The translations under genes and the position numbers were made by a program. Below the pieces are notes generated by a model. That model was not told the origin of the DNA. It searched no databases and worked only from the letters and a program-made list of their open reading frames with translations. Below are positions 53,980 through 64,000 of a stretch of DNA of 64,000 nt, piece after piece. Source of the stretch: Aeoliella mucimassa (lineage in GTDB: Bacteria > Planctomycetota > Planctomycetia > Pirellulales > Lacipirellulaceae); NCBI RefSeq assembly GCF_007748035.1, contig NZ_CP036278.1:1674001-1738000 (forward strand), in the 5' to 3' direction. Numbering within the stretch: position 1 is the first letter of the stretch; the number at the start of each line of letters is the position of its first letter.

Positions 53980-56900
53980 ATGAACAAGTTGACTTCATCG
54001 CGGCTGCTGTCCGCACTCTTGTTGATGATCATGCTGTTGGCGACCACCAAGGCTGTGGGACCCGTCACCGCATTGGCTCAGGACGAAACTCCCGCTGTCG
54101 CCGAGCAGCCCGCTACCGAGGCGGACGAAGCCCCGGCAGCCGAAGAGCCCGCGGCAGAGCAACCTGCTGACGAGCCCGCGGCCGAAGAGCCGGCGATGAC
54201 CGAAGAGTCGGCCCCGCCGACCGAGGAACCCGCTGCGGAAGAGCCTGCGGCTACCGAAGAGCCTACTGCTGAAGCAGCTACCGAGGAGCCAGCTGCTGAA
54301 GAACCAGCCGCGGAGCCTGCGACGGAAGAAGCTGCTGCCGAGCCAGAAGCTCCGGCCGAACCAGCCGAAACCGCTCCTGCGGCCGAACCGACTACTGAAG
54401 AACGCAGCACCGAACCAGCCGCTGAGACGCCTGCGACTGAAGATTCGACGACGGCTGAATCCCCCGCTGCTGATTCCACCGCGTCGACCGATGCTGCTGC
54501 TACCGAGTCCGGTGAACAAAACACCTTCGTGGCCGCTGGCAAAGTGCTATTGATCCTGGCCCTGGTCTTCATCGTGCCCGCCATTCTGGGTTCGCGCCTA
54601 GCCAAGTCGTTTAACCTGCCCGACCATGGGTGGAAGATCTCGCTGGCGATTGCCACGACGCTGGCCGGTATTCTCGCGATTGCCTCAGCTGCGACTCGCG
54701 AAGGTGGCTTCAAGCTGGGTCCCGACCTGGGTGGTGGTGTGACCCTGGTATACGACCTGAAGGATCCCGATTCGGTGGTCGACGACAAGGACCAGAAGAA
54801 TCAGCCAGAAGCCGAAACGGAGGAAACGACCGAATCGCGGGCGCCGGTAAGCATGTCGAAGATGCTTGCAGCCCTCAAGCAACGTGTCGACCCGAGCGGT
54901 ACCAAAGAAGTCACTATCCGCACCCGCGGCAAGAGCATCGAGTTCATCGTTCCCAAGGCCGGCGATGCGGAGCTGATTGATCTCAAGCGTCGTATTACCG
55001 ACCTGGGACAACTCGAGTTCCGTATCTTGGTCGACAAGAATCGTCCCGAGTTCGAGCGCATCGTAAAGAGCGCATTGCTGCTGCCACCTGGTCAGAAAGT
55101 GGTAACCCAGGGTCCCGATGATGTTGCCCGCTGGGTTCCTTACGATGTCGAAGAGTTTGGCAAAGTCGACGAAGATCCTGCAGGCGATGATGTCCGCGGC
55201 CAGAGTGTCGTGAAGCGGATGGGTGTTGATGAGACTCCTGAAATCCTGGTGTACCTTGATCCCTATGACGTGACTGGTGAATTCCTGTCGTCGGCGAGCA
55301 AGGGTGTCGGACAGGAAGGCTTCGAGGTTCGATTCAGCTTCAATGCCAAGGGGGCCAAGCGTTTCGGCCAGTTAACTGCCACTCACACGCCGAATCCCCG
55401 TCCTTACTTCTTGGGCATCATCCTCGACGAAAGTGTCCGCTCGGCACCGAGTATTCGTAGTAAGATTACCAACAGCGGTACCATTAGTGGCCGCGGGATG
55501 GACGAAGAAGAAGTCGACCACGTCGTTAGTATTCTCGACGCGGGTAGCTTGCCGGCCGAGTTGCAGAAGACTCCTGTGAGCGAAGAGCAGACGGGCCCCG
55601 AGATTGGTGAACTCACCATTCGTCAGGGTACCCGTGCCATGGCTTCTTCGCTGGCAATTGTGCTGCTGTTTATTCTGGTTTACTACCGGTTTGCCGGTAT
55701 CGTGGCCTGCCTGGCACTCGTGGTGAATATTGTGCTGGTGGTAGGAACCATGGTGATGCTGAACGCTGCGTTCACGTTGCCTGGTATTGCTGGTTTGGTG
55801 CTGACCGTCGGTATGTCGGTGGACGCCAACGTGCTGATCTTCGAGCGTATTCGCGAAGAACTCGCTCGTGGTTCGACGCTACGCATGGCGATTCGTAATG
55901 GTTTCGACCGAGCGACAACCACAATTGTCGACGCGAACGTCACGACGCTCATCACTGCGATTGTGCTCTACGTGATTGGTACCGACCAGATTCGTGGTTT
56001 TGCCATCACGTTGTTCCTCGGCATCATCATGAGTATGTATACGGCCATCTTCTGTGCCCGTATCCTGTTCGATATCGCCGAGCGGAATGGCTGGATCAAG
56101 CAACTGTCGATGATGCAGATGCTGACCCGCGCCAACATGGACTTCATGGGCAAATGGCCCGTGGCTGCTGTTCTGTCGCTGATCGTGATCGTGGTCGGTA
56201 TGTTTGGTGTCGCTTCGCGGCAGTCGAACTTGCTGAACATCGACTTCACCGGTGGTACCTCGGTGACCATGGTGCTGACCGAGCCGCTCGACATCTCTGA
56301 TGTCCGCAAGGCACTCGATGAAACCGAACTGGCGGATAAGAACCTGCTGGTCGTGGAACGGAAGCAGGATAACGCCGAATCGAGCTCCGAAGCCGCAGCA
56401 AAGACTCGCACCTACAAAATCGACTGCAGCCTGCAGGACGAGTTGGACGAGGACGGCCAACCGATTACCAGCGCTGTGTCGTTGGTCGAAGATATCCTGG
56501 GCAAGGCCTTCGAGGGCCAACTGAAGACCCATCACGTGAAAGCCGAACCGGTGGATTCGTTCACTGTGGGCGAAGGTGAGAACGTATTTACTGGGTTTAA
56601 GTCGACCATCCATTTCGGTGCCGATCTTGGGGAAAATGCCTCCGACGACTTGGCCGGCGTGACTCACGACTCGATTCAGGCCGACTTGATGCGGGTACTC
56701 AAAGAACGCGACCATGCGGGCATGGCTCCCGTGGTTACCAACGCTGAGTACACCGACGGATCGAGTCGCCGCTTTGCCAACTGGGAAGTCCAACTCAACG
56801 GCATCGAGCAGTCCGAAGCTCAAGCGGTGGTCGACGATCTGGTCAGCGAGTACAACGGCAAGCCGATCTTCCCGCTGGCCAACAAGATTGGTGGACGCGT

Positions 56901-57465
56901 CGCTGGTGACCTGCGACTGCAAGCGATCTACGCCATCGGCGTTAGCCTGCTGGGCATCGTGGGTTACATTTGGTTGCGATTCCAGAAGATTAGCTACGGT
57001 CTTGCTGCCGTGGCTGCCCTGGTGCACGACGTGCTCGTGACCTTGGGTCTGATTGCTCTGAGTGCCTTCGTGGTGAACAACGTTCCGCCGCTGGCAACCG
57101 CGCTGCAGCTGGATGCGTTCCAGATCAGCCTGTCGATCGTGGCCGCGTTCTTGACCATCATCGGTTACTCGCTGAACGATACGATCGTGGTGTTCGACCG
57201 CATTCGCGAAGTGCGAGGCAAGAGCCCGCACCTCACCGCGGATATGATCAACACCAGCGTGAACCAAACGTTGAGCCGTACATTGCTTACCTCGTTGACC
57301 ACATTCATCGTGGTGGCAATTCTTTACTTCTTCGGCGGCGACGGAATCCACGGATTCGCCTTCTCGTTGGTGGTCGGTGTGATCGTCGGTACTTACAGCT
57401 CGATCTTCATTGCCTCGCCAGTGCTGCTGTGGCTCTCGAAGTTCGAAGAAAAGTGGGACGCCTAG
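53980..57465 (+). CDS. secDF: SecDF fusion with Ala/Glu/Pro-rich N-terminal segment
   Basis: The protein uses the proton gradient to pull exported proteins across the membrane. It has 1161 residues. SecD: GFKLGPDLGGGVTLVYDL, then the periplasmic P1 domain, then LTVGMSVDANVLIFERIREEL. SecF: LLNIDFTGGTSVTM and YSLNDTIVVFDRIREVRGK, with the usual six-helix blocks. Unlike typical SecD, an N-terminal helix (1-25) is followed by about 145 residues of repeated EEPAAEEPA-type sequence (28-175) before two membrane helices and the SecD part. Low-complexity DNA (54100-54510) encodes it. The fusion of SecD and SecF is a known variant; the long acidic segment is the odd part. Confidence 0.96.
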   Translation: MNKLTSSRLLSALLLMIMLLATTKAVGPVTALAQDETPAVAEQPATEADEAPAAEEPAAEQPADEPAAEEPAMTEESAPPTEEPAAEEPAATEEPTAEAATEEPAAEEPAAEPATEEAAAEPEAPAEPAETAPAAEPTTEERSTEPAAETPATEDSTTAESPAADSTASTDAAATESGEQNTFVAAGKVLLILALVFIVPAILGSRLAKSFNLPDHGWKISLAIATTLAGILAIASAATREGGFKLGPDLGGGVTLVYDLKDPDSVVDDKDQKNQPEAETEETTESRAPVSMSKMLAALKQRVDPSGTKEVTIRTRGKSIEFIVPKAGDAELIDLKRRITDLGQLEFRILVDKNRPEFERIVKSALLLPPGQKVVTQGPDDVARWVPYDVEEFGKVDEDPAGDDVRGQSVVKRMGVDETPEILVYLDPYDVTGEFLSSASKGVGQEGFEVRFSFNAKGAKRFGQLTATHTPNPRPYFLGIILDESVRSAPSIRSKITNSGTISGRGMDEEEVDHVVSILDAGSLPAELQKTPVSEEQTGPEIGELTIRQGTRAMASSLAIVLLFILVYYRFAGIVACLALVVNIVLVVGTMVMLNAAFTLPGIAGLVLTVGMSVDANVLIFERIREELARGSTLRMAIRNGFDRATTTIVDANVTTLITAIVLYVIGTDQIRGFAITLFLGIIMSMYTAIFCARILFDIAERNGWIKQLSMMQMLTRANMDFMGKWPVAAVLSLIVIVVGMFGVASRQSNLLNIDFTGGTSVTMVLTEPLDISDVRKALDETELADKNLLVVERKQDNAESSSEAAAKTRTYKIDCSLQDELDEDGQPITSAVSLVEDILGKAFEGQLKTHHVKAEPVDSFTVGEGENVFTGFKSTIHFGADLGENASDDLAGVTHDSIQADLMRVLKERDHAGMAPVVTNAEYTDGSSRRFANWEVQLNGIEQSEAQAVVDDLVSEYNGKPIFPLANKIGGRVAGDLRLQAIYAIGVSLLGIVGYIWLRFQKISYGLAAVAALVHDVLVTLGLIALSAFVVNNVPPLATALQLDAFQISLSIVAAFLTIIGYSLNDTIVVFDRIREVRGKSPHLTADMINTSVNQTLSRTLLTSLTTFIVVAILYFFGGDGIHGFAFSLVVGVIVGTYSSIFIASPVLLWLSKFEEKWDA

Positions 57466-59867: not shown

Positions 59868-61613
59868 TTAGCTGTACGGTTCGGCTGGTAGCAGATCTTC
59901 TTCTGCCGACTTGCTGAGCGTCTCGCAAGGCGTGTCCCACGGCAAGCGAATGGTAAATCGGGTGCCAACGCCGGGAGTGCTATCGAAATCGATCGAACCG
60001 CCGTGTTTGTGAACCACGGTGTTATAGACAACCGACAACCCCTGACCGGTGCCACGTCCGACCTCTTTCGTCGTGAAGAAGGGGTCGTACACTCGCTCGC
60101 GGATATCCAACGGAATGCCGACACCGTCGTCTTCGACCACGATCACCGCATGATCGGGTTCTTGAATCGTGCGGAGCGTCAGGCGTCCCTGTGGTTCGTC
60201 GTGCTCGCCATACTTCTGCTGAATGGCGTCCGAGGCATTCACAATCAGGTTAAGCAGCACTTGGTGGATCTCATGCGGCACGCATACCAACTCTGGTAGC
60301 TTAGGATCGAGGTGCAGATGCACCTTGGCAATCTTCTTGAGGGTGTTTCGGGTAACTGTGGTCGCACTCTCGATCGCCTTGTTAATGTCAAGCGGAGCGC
60401 AGGATTCCTGTCCGGGATTGGTAAAGCGAGACATCGCTTGAACTACCTCGACCACACGACGCACGCCTTCGAGGGTTTCCTCAATCGCTTGAGGCAATTC
60501 GGTGCGGACCATCGAGAACTGTTCGCGATCCTTGATGCTAATCATCTCGCCCCAGCGTTCATCCCAGGTCTTGGAGGGACCGGTCAGATCGAGATTGCGT
60601 TCGAAGGCCTCGAACACGCGTTCGATCTTCTCGGTGCAATGTCGAACAAACTCAATGTTCTGGTGAATGAACTGCATCGGCGTATTGATTTCATGAGCCA
60701 CCCCGGCGGCCAGTTGACCAACCGATTCCAGCTTACGCGCCTGATTCAACTTGTCTTGCAGTTGTTTGTATTCGGTAAGGTCTCGCAAGATAGCCGTCCA
60801 GCGTTTGCCGTCGCTAGCGTCAAATTGGCTAAGGCTCACGAGCATCGGTACTTCCTTGCCCGATTTGTGAACGCCATTCACATCAATGGCAGGTACTGCT
60901 TCCTCGCTCTTTTTGGTAAGAGTCTTGCCCACGCATGCTTGCCAGGTTGCGATGGCCGGCTCGGTAAGGAGCGTGGCAAAGGACTTGCCAACCAACTCAT
61001 CACGCGAGAAACCGAACAAGAAGCTGGCCGCCTGGTTCGACGACTCAATCACGCCCTCGGTGGTCATCGTTAGAATGCCATCCACGGCGGTTTCCACGAT
61101 CGAGTCGATCTTGCTTTCTGCATGACGCTCGAGGTCCCATTTCTGCGTCAGCGCAATGGCCAGCTGACAAACTTCGACATTGTCGAAGGGCTTCTTGAGT
61201 ATGAGTAGCCGATCGCGATAGGGAATGCGCTCGATGATCTCCGACCACGAGTAATCGGAAAACGCAGTGCAAATCACCACCTGCAATCGTGGATCGACCT
61301 GCCATAGGTGCTCGATGGTCTGTAGCCCGTCCCAGCCGGGTGGCATACGCATGTCGACAAACGCCATGGCAAACGGAGTGTTCTCCAGTTGGCTGCGTTT
61401 GACCAATTCGTAGGCTTCTTGCCCCTGATGGGCGGAGATAAGCTCGAACGTCGGAACGTCGGTCGACGAGGCTTCGTCGCCGAATACGAGCGCGCTCAAC
61501 TCGTCGAGGGCTTCGTCCTCGGTGTCGAGTGCGAGTATCTTCCGATAGTCCTCGTGGATGGCAGGATTGTCGTCGACAATCAAGATCCGCGTGTTCGTGG
61601 CGACTTGTGGCAT
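59868..61613 (-). CDS. Receiver-PAS-histidine kinase
   Basis: A 581-residue cytoplasmic protein. Residues 7-150 are a receiver domain with the phosphoacceptor Asp in FVDMRMPPGWDG (about 87) and the conserved LKKPFD lysine. A PAS domain follows (DSIVETAVDGILTMT), then a histidine kinase core: AAGVAHEINTPMQ (phosphorylated His, about 307), the N box LLNLIVNASDAI, DDGVGIP, and GRGTGQGLSVV. No membrane helix is present. The ATG at 61613 has a GAGAG box 8 bases upstream; an ATG at 61637 is also in frame. It is third in an apparent yfiR-kinase-kinase operon, with 45 bases to the upstream gene. Confidence 0.94.
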   Translation of the reverse strand: MPQVATNTRILIVDDNPAIHEDYRKILALDTEDEALDELSALVFGDEASSTDVPTFELISAHQGQEAYELVKRSQLENTPFAMAFVDMRMPPGWDGLQTIEHLWQVDPRLQVVICTAFSDYSWSEIIERIPYRDRLLILKKPFDNVEVCQLAIALTQKWDLERHAESKIDSIVETAVDGILTMTTEGVIESSNQAASFLFGFSRDELVGKSFATLLTEPAIATWQACVGKTLTKKSEEAVPAIDVNGVHKSGKEVPMLVSLSQFDASDGKRWTAILRDLTEYKQLQDKLNQARKLESVGQLAAGVAHEINTPMQFIHQNIEFVRHCTEKIERVFEAFERNLDLTGPSKTWDERWGEMISIKDREQFSMVRTELPQAIEETLEGVRRVVEVVQAMSRFTNPGQESCAPLDINKAIESATTVTRNTLKKIAKVHLHLDPKLPELVCVPHEIHQVLLNLIVNASDAIQQKYGEHDEPQGRLTLRTIQEPDHAVIVVEDDGVGIPLDIRERVYDPFFTTKEVGRGTGQGLSVVYNTVVHKHGGSIDFDSTPGVGTRFTIRLPWDTPCETLSKSAEEDLLPAEPYS

Positions 61614-61658
61614 TGCCAATCTCTCTGTGGTGATCATGAGCGAGTTCTTGCTAGGCGG

Positions 61659-63350
61659 CTAATGGGATGCAACGACAACAGGCTTGCAGGGAAGACTGAG
61701 TGTGAACGTGGCCCCCTTCATGTGGCCTTCGCTCTCGACAGTAAGTTCGCCTTCCATGGTGGCTGCGGCATTGGCACAACTGTGCAGTCCGAAGCCGTGG
61801 CCGCCTGACTTTGTGGAAAAGCCATGCGAGAAAACCTTCGTAAGATTATGTGGCTCGATACCAACACCGGTATCAGAAATCTGAACCAATAGGCGGTCGT
61901 CTTTCGTTAACGTCGTTAATCGCAATACGCGCTCGTTGTCGCTTTGCTCAAGCAACGATTCTTTGGCGTTCTTGACCAGATTGATTACGATTTGCAGTAG
62001 TCGCTGTTTATCGACCAGCAATTCCGATAGTTCACCGAAATCGCGGACGATCTGAATCTGGTGGCGATCGAAGGAGGATGCATTGAGCTTAATGACATCC
62101 TCCAGTAGTTCGTTGATATTCATCGGTTCCACCAGCCCGCTCGTGCCTGCGTAGGACTGCTGGGTGGCGATAATCGCCTTGATATGTTCGATATTACTCG
62201 TCAGTGATGACGACTCGATCATCATCACGTTGTCTTCGGTTTCGAGACTCTCGGCTAGTTTGTCCAGAAACTTCGGGATCTGTTTGCCTCGTTCGTCGTT
62301 CTTAAGGAATTCTCCCAGATCGTCGGAGTGCTCGTTGAACAGGTCGACCAGACGCTTCAGTTGCTTGCGTTTGGAGGTCTTCAGGCGTTGGAAGATCGTA
62401 TTCGCCGAGACATTCACGCTATTGAGCACGTTGCCAACATTATGCAGCACGCCCGAAGCGATTTCCGCCATTCCAGCGTATCGAGCCGCCTCGACAAACT
62501 CACGATGCACCCGCTCGAGTTCCAGTTCGGCCCTTCGGCGTTCGGACACTTCGTTGCTGAGTTCGTAATTGGCGTCAGACAGCTGTCGCGTTCTTTGATC
62601 CACGCGAATTTCCAATTGATCGTTCGCTTCTTGAAGCTCTTGTTTGCTAGTTTCGACTTGATCGAGCATGCGATTGAACTGATCGTAGAGCACCCCGAGT
62701 TCATCCTCGCTGTCTTTCGTCACACGGATCGAGTAATCCTCTTCCGCCGAAATGCGTTTGGCGGTATTGGCCAGATCCAGAATGGGACCCGCAATCGATT
62801 GCTGCAAAGGGGCACACACTAGATAGGTGATGCCCGAGCAAATCAGTACAACCACCAGCACAATGACGGAATAGTCGAATATTTCACGGTTCAGTGCATC
62901 GAGATTGGCCACGATATAGATGGTGCCTATCACTTCATCATCGGATTCAATCGGAGAGGCTACCGAAAGCAGATTCTTGCCGAGAAACGCGTGTCCCATC
63001 TCTGTAGGGGCAGCGGGAGGGTCGATGGACGTTTTCGAATGGGAGTAAGCGGTAAAGATCTCACCATCAGGCAGGTAAATGTACCCCGCTTCGATCGATG
63101 GCTGCAGTCGTAGTGAATCGAGCAGCTGCTGAGCCGCCAAGTTGTCGTCGAATTCAATCGAGGCGGTCGTGTTGGCCCCCAGCAAATCGCACAGCGAATT
63201 GAGCTGACGAACCATGGCAGCGCGTTCGAACTGCCAGTGTTTGAACAGCAACGCCACGGACGATAGCAACAGCGCAGTCAATACCGCAGAAAGCACCAAG
63301 AAGGTGAGCTTTCTCTGGATCGGCAATCGGTTTAACCAGCGTTTTAGCAT
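61659..63350 (-). CDS. CHASE8-HAMP sensor histidine kinase
   Basis: A 563-residue membrane sensor. Helices at about 15-36 and 160-180 flank a periplasmic CHASE8-like domain (FERAAMVRQLNSLCDLLGANTTASIEFDDN, span; then IEAGYIYLPDGEIFTAYS). A HAMP linker (PILDLANTAKRISAEEDYSIRV, span) and a coiled coil follow. The dimerisation part has ASGVLHNVGNVLNSVNVSAN with H303 as phosphoacceptor, and the ATPase core has NLVKNAKESL, DTGVGIEP and GGHGFGLH. The domain order is like YfiN of Pseudomonas, but the GGDEF output is replaced by a kinase. The yfiR-like gene lies 13 bases upstream. Confidence 0.94.
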   Translation of the reverse strand: MLKRWLNRLPIQRKLTFLVLSAVLTALLLSSVALLFKHWQFERAAMVRQLNSLCDLLGANTTASIEFDDNLAAQQLLDSLRLQPSIEAGYIYLPDGEIFTAYSHSKTSIDPPAAPTEMGHAFLGKNLLSVASPIESDDEVIGTIYIVANLDALNREIFDYSVIVLVVVLICSGITYLVCAPLQQSIAGPILDLANTAKRISAEEDYSIRVTKDSEDELGVLYDQFNRMLDQVETSKQELQEANDQLEIRVDQRTRQLSDANYELSNEVSERRRAELELERVHREFVEAARYAGMAEIASGVLHNVGNVLNSVNVSANTIFQRLKTSKRKQLKRLVDLFNEHSDDLGEFLKNDERGKQIPKFLDKLAESLETEDNVMMIESSSLTSNIEHIKAIIATQQSYAGTSGLVEPMNINELLEDVIKLNASSFDRHQIQIVRDFGELSELLVDKQRLLQIVINLVKNAKESLLEQSDNERVLRLTTLTKDDRLLVQISDTGVGIEPHNLTKVFSHGFSTKSGGHGFGLHSCANAAATMEGELTVESEGHMKGATFTLSLPCKPVVVASH

Positions 63351-63363
63351 GGGACGCGATCTG

Positions 63364-64000
63364 TTACGGGGTGGACGATGCAGTTTGGGGATCGATAATT
63401 TTCGCGAGCGATAGCAACTTGGAACTGATCTTTAAGCGGCTTCCAGCGGCCGTCGATCGGCTGCAAGCAAAACGAACCTTGTTGTTTTCCAGATAGAATT
63501 GCATGCTGCCACCTGCTGAAATGAATTCGTCAGATTCGCCAACGGTCAGTACAGCAACGTCAGCAGCGGCTGCAAGCAGTTCTTGGTCTTTGTCAGTAAG
63601 TTCTATTCCTGGGATGAACAAGATATGGCAATGTGCGACTTCGGACGTCTCGGTAACGGTGACGATCTCAATGGTTCGACCCGATACTTTCTTACGCTCA
63701 GCGATTTGATCAAGACTCGAACCAAATGGATTGGAACTGGCGATTCCGATAACAAAGGGTTGATCATCCTTGGAGAACGAATCGGATGGCCATTCGACGT
63801 ACTTGGAGAATTGGTAAAGAAAAGCAGCTTTGATATCGTATTCGCGGTTGACAACTACGGTTTGAGCAAACGCTCCGCTGCAGCAACCTTGGATCAATAA
63901 CAAGAGCAAAGCTAGTCGTCGCGCCCGAAGTAAACAGCGCGTTCGCAGAGTGCTGCTTGCATGGCAAGAGCAATCGTTGTGCGAGGCACCATTTGTTCGT
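63364..64000 (-). CDS. YfiR-family periplasmic protein (5' end beyond window)
   Basis: A DUF4154/YfiR protein, the periplasmic repressor that in Pseudomonas binds the CHASE8 domain of YfiN. Seen: YDIKAAFLYQFSKYVEWP, FVIGIASSNPFG, HCHILFIPG, AVLTVGESDEFISAGGSMQF, and NNKVRFACSRSTA, with two cysteines able to form redox-sensitive disulfides. The signal peptide (LALLLLLIQGCCSGAFA) has its basic region (RTRCLLRARR) upstream of the first in-window start, a TTG at 63909, and the frame is open to the window edge. The true start therefore probably lies outside. It is followed by the CHASE8 kinase 13 bases downstream and is likely its input regulator. Confidence 0.88.
   Translation of the reverse strand, partial: RTNGASHNDCSCHASSTLRTRCLLRARRLALLLLLIQGCCSGAFAQTVVVNREYDIKAAFLYQFSKYVEWPSDSFSKDDQPFVIGIASSNPFGSSLDQIAERKKVSGRTIEIVTVTETSEVAHCHILFIPGIELTDKDQELLAAAADVAVLTVGESDEFISAGGSMQFYLENNKVRFACSRSTAAGSRLKISSKLLSLAKIIDPQTASSTP

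Follow-up and report, generated by a model that had tools for sequence, protein, structure and literature searches.

A YfiR-linked CHASE8 histidine kinase and its probable receiver partner in Aeoliella mucimassa

Layout and domains of the locus

The DNA analyzed here, called the window, is a 64,000-nt stretch of the Aeoliella mucimassa genome (GCF_007748035.1, NZ_CP036278.1; Planctomycetota, Pirellulales, Lacipirellulaceae). Its last 4.1 kb is occupied by three minus-strand genes: one for a YfiR-like periplasmic protein, followed by one for a non-hybrid CHASE8-HAMP sensor histidine kinase (HK1) and then by one for a second histidine kinase that carries a receiver and a PAS domain (HK2). Thirteen bases separate the end of YfiR (63364) from the start of HK1 (63350), and 21 separate the end of HK1 (61659) from the start of HK2 (61637). 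The gaps are so narrow that, judged by spacing, the three genes form a single predicted operon. This order of genes, with its 13-base gap, had been proposed in an initial annotation of the window and was borne out by the coordinates and by Pfam.

The YfiR gene (63364..64000) is cut by the window edge. Its probable ATG lies 11 bases past base 64000 and gives a basic stretch followed by a hydrophobic signal peptide; a TTG at 63909 is an alternative start. The protein matched PF13689 (DUF4154/YfiR; E 3.6e-39), the only such match in the 6.6 Mb genome, and NCBIfam NF053591 (152.5 bits, cut-off 125).

HK1 (61659..63350) matched the Pfam models for CHASE8 (2.5e-13), HAMP (5.4e-9) and HATPase_c (1.4e-19), as well as NF053592 (197.9 bits, cut-off 194); no PF00512 match was listed in a Pfam scan to E 1. 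The periplasmic CHASE8 domain (PF17152; residues 44-147, 62910..63221) contains the motif A63-S64-I65-E66-F67, and a structure model of residues 1-185 had a pLDDT of 92.6. In the DHp region (62151..62567), located by alignments and a model, His303 lies in the motif LHNVGN, 158 residues before N461 of the N box. According to the model (pLDDT 80.7, pTM 0.55), additional helices (residues 328-356) are inserted between the DHp helix pair. The ATP-binding domain (PF02518; 61686..62012) contains the N, G1 and G2 box motifs. A search by sequence for a solved relative of the DHp region gave no credible candidate, and by fold the kinase part resembled ordinary HisKA-type kinases (HK853, KinB).

HK2 (59868..61637) matched Response_reg (1.4e-8), PAS_9 (4.3e-13) and HATPase_c (5.1e-24), with a weak HisKA match (0.0023) below the cut-off. 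The receiver is N-terminal (61143..61589) and belongs to a subfamily termed RECw here; profile alignment identified D95 as the acceptor and D22 D23 as the acidic pair, and comparison with Spo0F showed an insertion of about 26 residues after alpha-1, before beta-2. The PAS domain (PF13426) spans 60771..61082, the DHp histidine is H315 (codon 60693-60695) and the ATP-binding domain (PF02518) spans 59937..60278. The residues for phosphotransfer are thus present in both proteins: H303, N461, D493 and the G box in HK1, and D22 D23, D95, T124 and K148/K149 in the HK2 receiver.

Pairing of the DHp region with the receiver

The distribution of the HK1 DHp type and of RECw was surveyed in 146 genomes of the order Pirellulales and in 299 of the Pseudomonadota, to which the Pseudomonas genome G342 belongs. 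PF13689 was found in 24 of the 146 order genomes and in 24 of 199 genomes drawn from the phylum Planctomycetota, and 56 planctomycete YfiR loci, the window's own included, were read from these two draws. Further loci (L112-L191) were the best 80 of 469 relatives retrieved with the patterns [GD]VLHNVGN and NL[VI][KN]NAK[ED]; the frequency of LHNVGN among them is largely by construction because the scan pattern contained it. Some of the 80 overlap the whole-genome loci, and L113 is probably the same contig as L086. Genes were called with a custom greedy open reading frame caller and domains tagged with hidden Markov models built from sequences of this analysis; in some genomes the profile searches scored part of the first-pass candidates (e.g., 23 of 58 and 11 of 84).

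At thresholds of E <=1e-25 for the receiver and E <=1e-20 for the DHp model, each was found in 25 of the 146 order genomes, and the two sets were identical (naive hypergeometric p 1e-28, too small owing to relatedness). These genomes span 20 of 88 genera. YfiR, by contrast, coincides with the set in 12 of its 24 genomes. The two elements lie within 5 kb of each other in 18 of the 25; the remaining seven (G121, G206, G274, G289, G293, G317 and G322) carry both, farther apart or on other contigs. Among the Pseudomonadota (receiver E <=1e-20, DHp E <=1e-6), the receiver was found in 27 genomes and the DHp in 16, all 16 of which also had the receiver.

The same association was seen at the level of loci. 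Of 93 such kinases in the pattern-scan loci, 71 had a receiver of this subfamily encoded no more than three genes away, and 55 had it directly downstream. Over all loci, CHASE8 kinases with this DHp had the receiver nearby in 37 of 46 cases and were never hybrids (0/46); of the CHASE8 kinases with another DHp, 31 of 37 had a receiver of their own and one of 37 had RECw nearby. The subfamily is well delimited, with scores on the receiver model of 120 (a short fragment) to 348 bits in the sampled loci and 22 bits for the next other match. The window genome has one strong RECw receiver, that of HK2 (288.6 bits; next match 29). Judged from gene content, the pattern is that of a hybrid kinase split into two proteins, the receiver being a dedicated partner, and signalling from HK1 to HK2 has strong circumstantial support. 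The initial annotation had described the operon as an apparent phosphorelay; co-occurrence and co-location support that description solely for the step from HK1 to the HK2 receiver. A phosphorelay proper would also include an HPt or second phospho-histidine that hands the phosphate to a terminal regulator; HK2 has a DHp histidine of its own (H315).

Two kinases with this DHp are encoded in the window genome, HK1 and one that is soluble by its domains. The second (L202:1430-2533; G000:C1:1748929-1750032) lies outside the window, about 13 kb from HK1, and starts 20 bases after a gene for a FIST-domain protein. The YfiR operon is separated from this FIST and kinase gene pair by a transposase-like gene with DDE_3 and HTH domains (L002:16158-17273).

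The receiver is fused to varied outputs. In 78 kinase-receiver pairs near the 93 kinases, the receiver was joined to a histidine kinase in 54, to GGDEF and EAL in 11, to GGDEF and CBS in two, and to GGDEF and HD-GYP in one each; nine were untagged. Pfam confirmed GGDEF-CBS (L086, L089), HD-GYP (L037, L089), GGDEF-EAL (L096) and PAS-kinase (L086) outputs, and L086 has in a single row the genes for a TonB-dependent receptor, YfiR, HK1, a receiver-GGDEF-CBS protein and an HK2 homologue. Because the same receiver bears cyclase and phosphodiesterase domains in relatives, the link to cyclic di-GMP (c-di-GMP) is direct, and the c-di-GMP output of YfiN would reappear in trans, the window having the kinase version. 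No CHASE8-GGDEF protein was found near YfiR in the 56 planctomycete loci, using a GGDEF model built on three sequences. The receiver-GGDEF-CBS genes beside the YfiR kinase (L086:4547-6259, L089:10047-11858) are an unfamiliar pairing of c-di-GMP synthesis with an often nucleotide-binding domain.

YfiR, the CHASE8 input and a TonB-dependent receptor

HK1 has a HATPase and no GGDEF domain, and the initial annotation presented this kinase, in place of the cyclase of Pseudomonas, as the point of interest. The domain assignment was correct; the novelty was rejected, since the arrangement of YfiR with a kinase was already known from Malone 2012 (PMC3375315) and from NCBIfam. The former describes divergent Yfi systems in which the GGDEF of YfiN is often swapped for GGDEF-EAL, HPT or sensor histidine kinases, and proposes that YfiR and a PAS/HAMP core are an older module wired to varied outputs. 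In having YfiR together with a YfiN-type periplasmic input on a histidine kinase the window system resembles these, but the paper's passages on such systems mention neither the DHp type nor the receiver, and TonB, Planctomyc- and Rhodopirellula are absent from its main text. NCBIfam release 20 contains three models linked by name: a TOL_0243 family YfiR-like protein (NF053591), a YfiR-like protein-associated sensor kinase (NF053592) and a TOL_0244 family TonB-dependent receptor (NF053590); NCBI naming thus already ties a TonB receptor to this type of YfiR. Window YfiR and the HK1 input pass the cut-offs of their models, and in relatives the receptor is often beside YfiR. The window locus differs in that the receptor is encoded elsewhere and scores under the cut-off, and in that HK1, with its LHNVGN DHp, carries no receiver of its own. 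Lack of a conserved gene order, which the initial annotation had named as a refuting outcome, was not observed: in 44 of the 56 planctomycete loci YfiR has a CHASE8 kinase no more than two genes away, 31 of these kinases being hybrids, seven having the window DHp type and six being others. The system is real, conserved and mostly of a known kind, in a variant form.

The likeness to YfiBNR of Pseudomonas aeruginosa (in which YfiN is DgcN) is in the YfiR-like protein and the CHASE8-HAMP membrane protein, with the hydrophobic A..F motif kept; the DgcN/YfiN model matched HK1 residues 12-250 (E 4.5e-24), far below its cut-off. An AAVVF motif of YfiN was predicted in Malone 2012, as given in PMC3375315, to bind YfiR. 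A63-S64-I65-E66-F67 of HK1 resembles it, a match made from the motif, without a YfiN sequence in the comparison. Among 27 kinases with YfiR within three genes, the last residue of the motif was F in 23 and Y, L, I and N in one each, the N belonging to the second kinase in locus L144. The Phe was also present in four of 12 kinases without a nearby YfiR (L114, L125, L127 and L129; 39 CHASE8-tagged kinases in all). Several of the CHASE8 tags on such kinases were weak (24-56 bits) and may be false; L114 starts at a contig end, and a YfiR gene may lie beyond it. A sequence search for solved relatives of the CHASE8 domain gave candidates that were rejected, as the matches fell on HAMP and neighbouring helices. 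A fold search with the model suggested an extracellular PAS-like sensor (WalK, the LapD orthologue CdgS9, CitA), with no YfiN entry among the 50 matches listed.

The window YfiR itself departs from the classical type. It scored 33.3 bits on the classical YfiR model NF053586, under the cut-off of 85. Four cysteines are described in PMC3375315 as strictly conserved in complete YfiBNR systems; C94 aligns with C110 of the P. aeruginosa protein, PaYfiR, and the other three positions are not cysteine. The other cysteine of the mature window protein, C149, is absent from eight aligned relatives, and F147 aligns with Phe162 of PaYfiR. No gene for YfiB or another OmpA/Pal-like protein was found among the six neighbouring genes scanned, no OmpA search having been made across the genome. 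With three of the four disulfide cysteines gone, no YfiB-like neighbour among those six and a TonB-dependent receptor accompanying YfiR (below), the proposal in the initial annotation that the input is the same envelope-stress signal was not upheld.

A TonB receptor was encoded within two genes of YfiR in 39 of the 56 planctomycete loci. In pattern-scan loci with the same kinase type, one lay within three genes of the kinase in 18 of 27 YfiR-positive loci versus none of 53 YfiR-negative loci (Fisher p 1.3e-11, phylogeny ignored). At a threshold fixed beforehand (E <=1e-80), receptors of the TOL_0244 type were found in 19 of the 146 order genomes: 18 of the 24 with YfiR and one of the 122 without it, G298 (Fisher p 5e-17, phylogeny ignored). 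These observations suggest that the TOL_0244-type receptor is probably the outer-membrane partner of YfiR.

The window genome encodes three TonB receptors. One (C1:5906467-5908587) is of the TOL_0244 type, with a nearly full-length match to NF053590 of 523 bits; of the other two, one scored 100 bits and one had no listed match. Four YfiR-adjacent receptors tested against the same model scored 519 to 637 bits, and its cut-off of 645 was passed in one of the 19 receptor-bearing order genomes, linked receptors counted. Along the contig this receptor and YfiR are about 4.2 Mb apart; on a circular chromosome the opposite route would measure 2.4 Mb. Two further genomes sampled from the same family, G235 and G311, have this kinase type beside YfiR, and in both the receptor is again away from YfiR: G235 has one on a different contig and a second, with an in-frame stop codon, at a distance of 98 kb, and that of G311 is 92 kb distant. 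Broken synteny, suggested by a 441-aa gene upstream of the receptor in both the window genome and L103, was rejected; the equal length is due to chance, one protein being GCV_T-like and the other of the MFS type.

TOL_0244 of Thalassolituus oleivorans is reported in PMC6304351 to be up sevenfold on the n-C28 alkane versus Tween 80, and the same paper presents OmpS of Alcanivorax dieselolei as a detector of alkanes. These belong to the receptor family that accompanies YfiR. The word 'YfiR' is absent from the main text of that paper, and nothing indicates an alkane as the planctomycete ligand. No riboswitch that would name a ligand reached the gathering score in eight loci (L002, L031, L033, L035, L046, L053, L086 and L089), where only tRNAs and a YrlA RNA were found.

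Literature searches, with most subscription journals outside their coverage, found no paper that treats YfiN, a TonB-dependent receptor and a histidine kinase together; for YfiR with a TonB-dependent receptor they gave papers that by title were on other subjects, and for the DHp and receiver motifs nothing relevant. The DHp-receiver couple, and the TonB receptor that accompanies YfiR genome-wide even if unlinked, were not found in print and may be new.

Around the operon, the gene 5' of YfiR encodes a 3-keto-disaccharide hydrolase about 0.4 kb away. Visual inspection showed a strong hairpin with a run of T's after it between the two (L002:8341-8380), which would make the operon a separate transcript. 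HK2 is followed by a convergent MMPL transporter gene. In two genomes without a TOL_0244-type receptor at the threshold, G268 and G294, genes of about 805 aa lie upstream of YfiR (L092:8830-11250, L093:5223-7634); the TonB model did not match them, and they could encode another partner. Elsewhere in the window, 53980-57465 encodes a 1161-aa protein that resembles a SecD-SecF fusion with a long, repetitive Glu/Ala/Pro-rich N-terminal stretch.

Proposed signalling chain and its alternatives

The following chain would account for these observations. The TOL_0244-type receptor, encoded elsewhere, probably engages periplasmic YfiR in a manner that depends on its ligand or TonB state, as co-occurrence suggests. 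YfiR would then hold or release the CHASE8 domain of HK1, by analogy with YfiBNR and from retention of the motif. HK1, whose motifs are intact, would autophosphorylate at H303 and pass the phosphate to D95 of the HK2 receiver, which co-occurrence, co-location and the paired insertions suggest is dedicated to this DHp subfamily. The receiver would switch HK2, a PAS-kinase whose own output would have to go to another regulator; in relatives the receiver would drive c-di-GMP enzymes. The core of the chain, from YfiR through HK1 to the HK2 receiver, is probable on the genomic evidence; with the receptor step included, the chain stands at about an even chance.

A broader reading is possible, and we hold it tentatively, at somewhat under an even chance. 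The system would be a split YfiN, in which a CHASE8 kinase that is gated by YfiR and has a distinct DHp signals in trans to a dedicated receiver with interchangeable outputs (GGDEF-EAL, GGDEF-CBS, HD-GYP or PAS-kinase). The alpha-1 helix of receivers docks on DHp domains in solved complexes, and the insertions would lie at or near the docking surface on both sides. The TonB partner would accompany the system even from megabases away, and YfiR would serve generally as an adaptor that links TonB receptors to inner-membrane sensors, YfiBNR being one special case.

Several observations weigh against the chain. Eleven of the 27 receiver-positive Pseudomonadota genomes had no DHp match, all 11 scoring under 140 bits on the receiver; nine of the 16 DHp matches there were weak (best 30-44 bits) and seven strong (at least 97 bits), the split into upper and lower tiers having been made after the scores were seen. 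No receiver was near 22 of the 93 kinases in the pattern-scan loci, nor near nine of the 46 CHASE8-tagged ones, and the P values of co-occurrence ignore phylogeny. Six of the 24 YfiR-positive genomes (G264, G121, G293, G268, G294 and G214) lacked the receptor at the threshold; in the window genome none is beside YfiR, and the unlinked one falls short of the NCBI cut-off. HisKA kinases usually carry an acidic residue after the phospho-histidine; HK1 has Asn after H303, so its autokinase activity is not certain. Finally, a second kinase with the same DHp beside a FIST protein means that the HK2 receiver may serve two inputs.

Some of these observations could be explained in other ways. The operon might be a YfiBNR-like sensor of envelope stress or redox state with a kinase output, in which YfiR or a distant YfiB-like lipoprotein senses damage or reducing conditions. 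Membership of YfiR in PF13689 and the lack of an adjacent receptor at the window locus are consistent with this, as are the proposal in PMC3375315 that Pseudomonas YfiR senses periplasmic redox and the statement there that yfiB is missing from almost all divergent systems. However, the window YfiR keeps one of the four PaYfiR cysteines, has a C149 not shared by its eight relatives and falls well under the classical cut-off; no OmpA/Pal-like gene was among the six neighbours scanned (a genome-wide OmpA search was not made), and across genomes it is a TonB receptor that accompanies YfiR. We consider such a sensor unlikely.

It is also conceivable that no phosphate passes between HK1 and HK2, HK1 acting on an unlinked regulator and the HK2 receiver being served by another kinase such as the FIST-linked paralogue. 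That paralogue, about 13 kb away, has the same DHp, and HK2 has the only strong RECw receiver of the genome. However, the receiver accompanies this kind of DHp in two phyla, whether or not their genes are linked, which makes the absence of transfer quite improbable; should the pairing hold, HK2 is probably where the two kinases converge. The Asn after H303 could alternatively mean that HK1 acts chiefly as a phosphatase, or that its kinase activity is weak, with YfiR controlling removal of phosphate from the HK2 receiver. LHNVGN lacks the acidic +1 residue and keeps an Asn at +4, which is linked with phosphatase activity in other kinases. HWE and HisKA_2 kinases nevertheless autophosphorylate without an acid at +1, and the ATP-binding boxes of HK1 are intact; this explanation is very unlikely.

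If the chain from TonB receptor to HK2 is correct, a TonB receptor would be the outer-membrane partner of many non-classical YfiR proteins, which would then sense a ligand rather than damage. The DHp and the receiver would be a rare co-occurring couple with insertions on both sides, whose specificity could be read from genomes and which would be useful for studies of two-component insulation.

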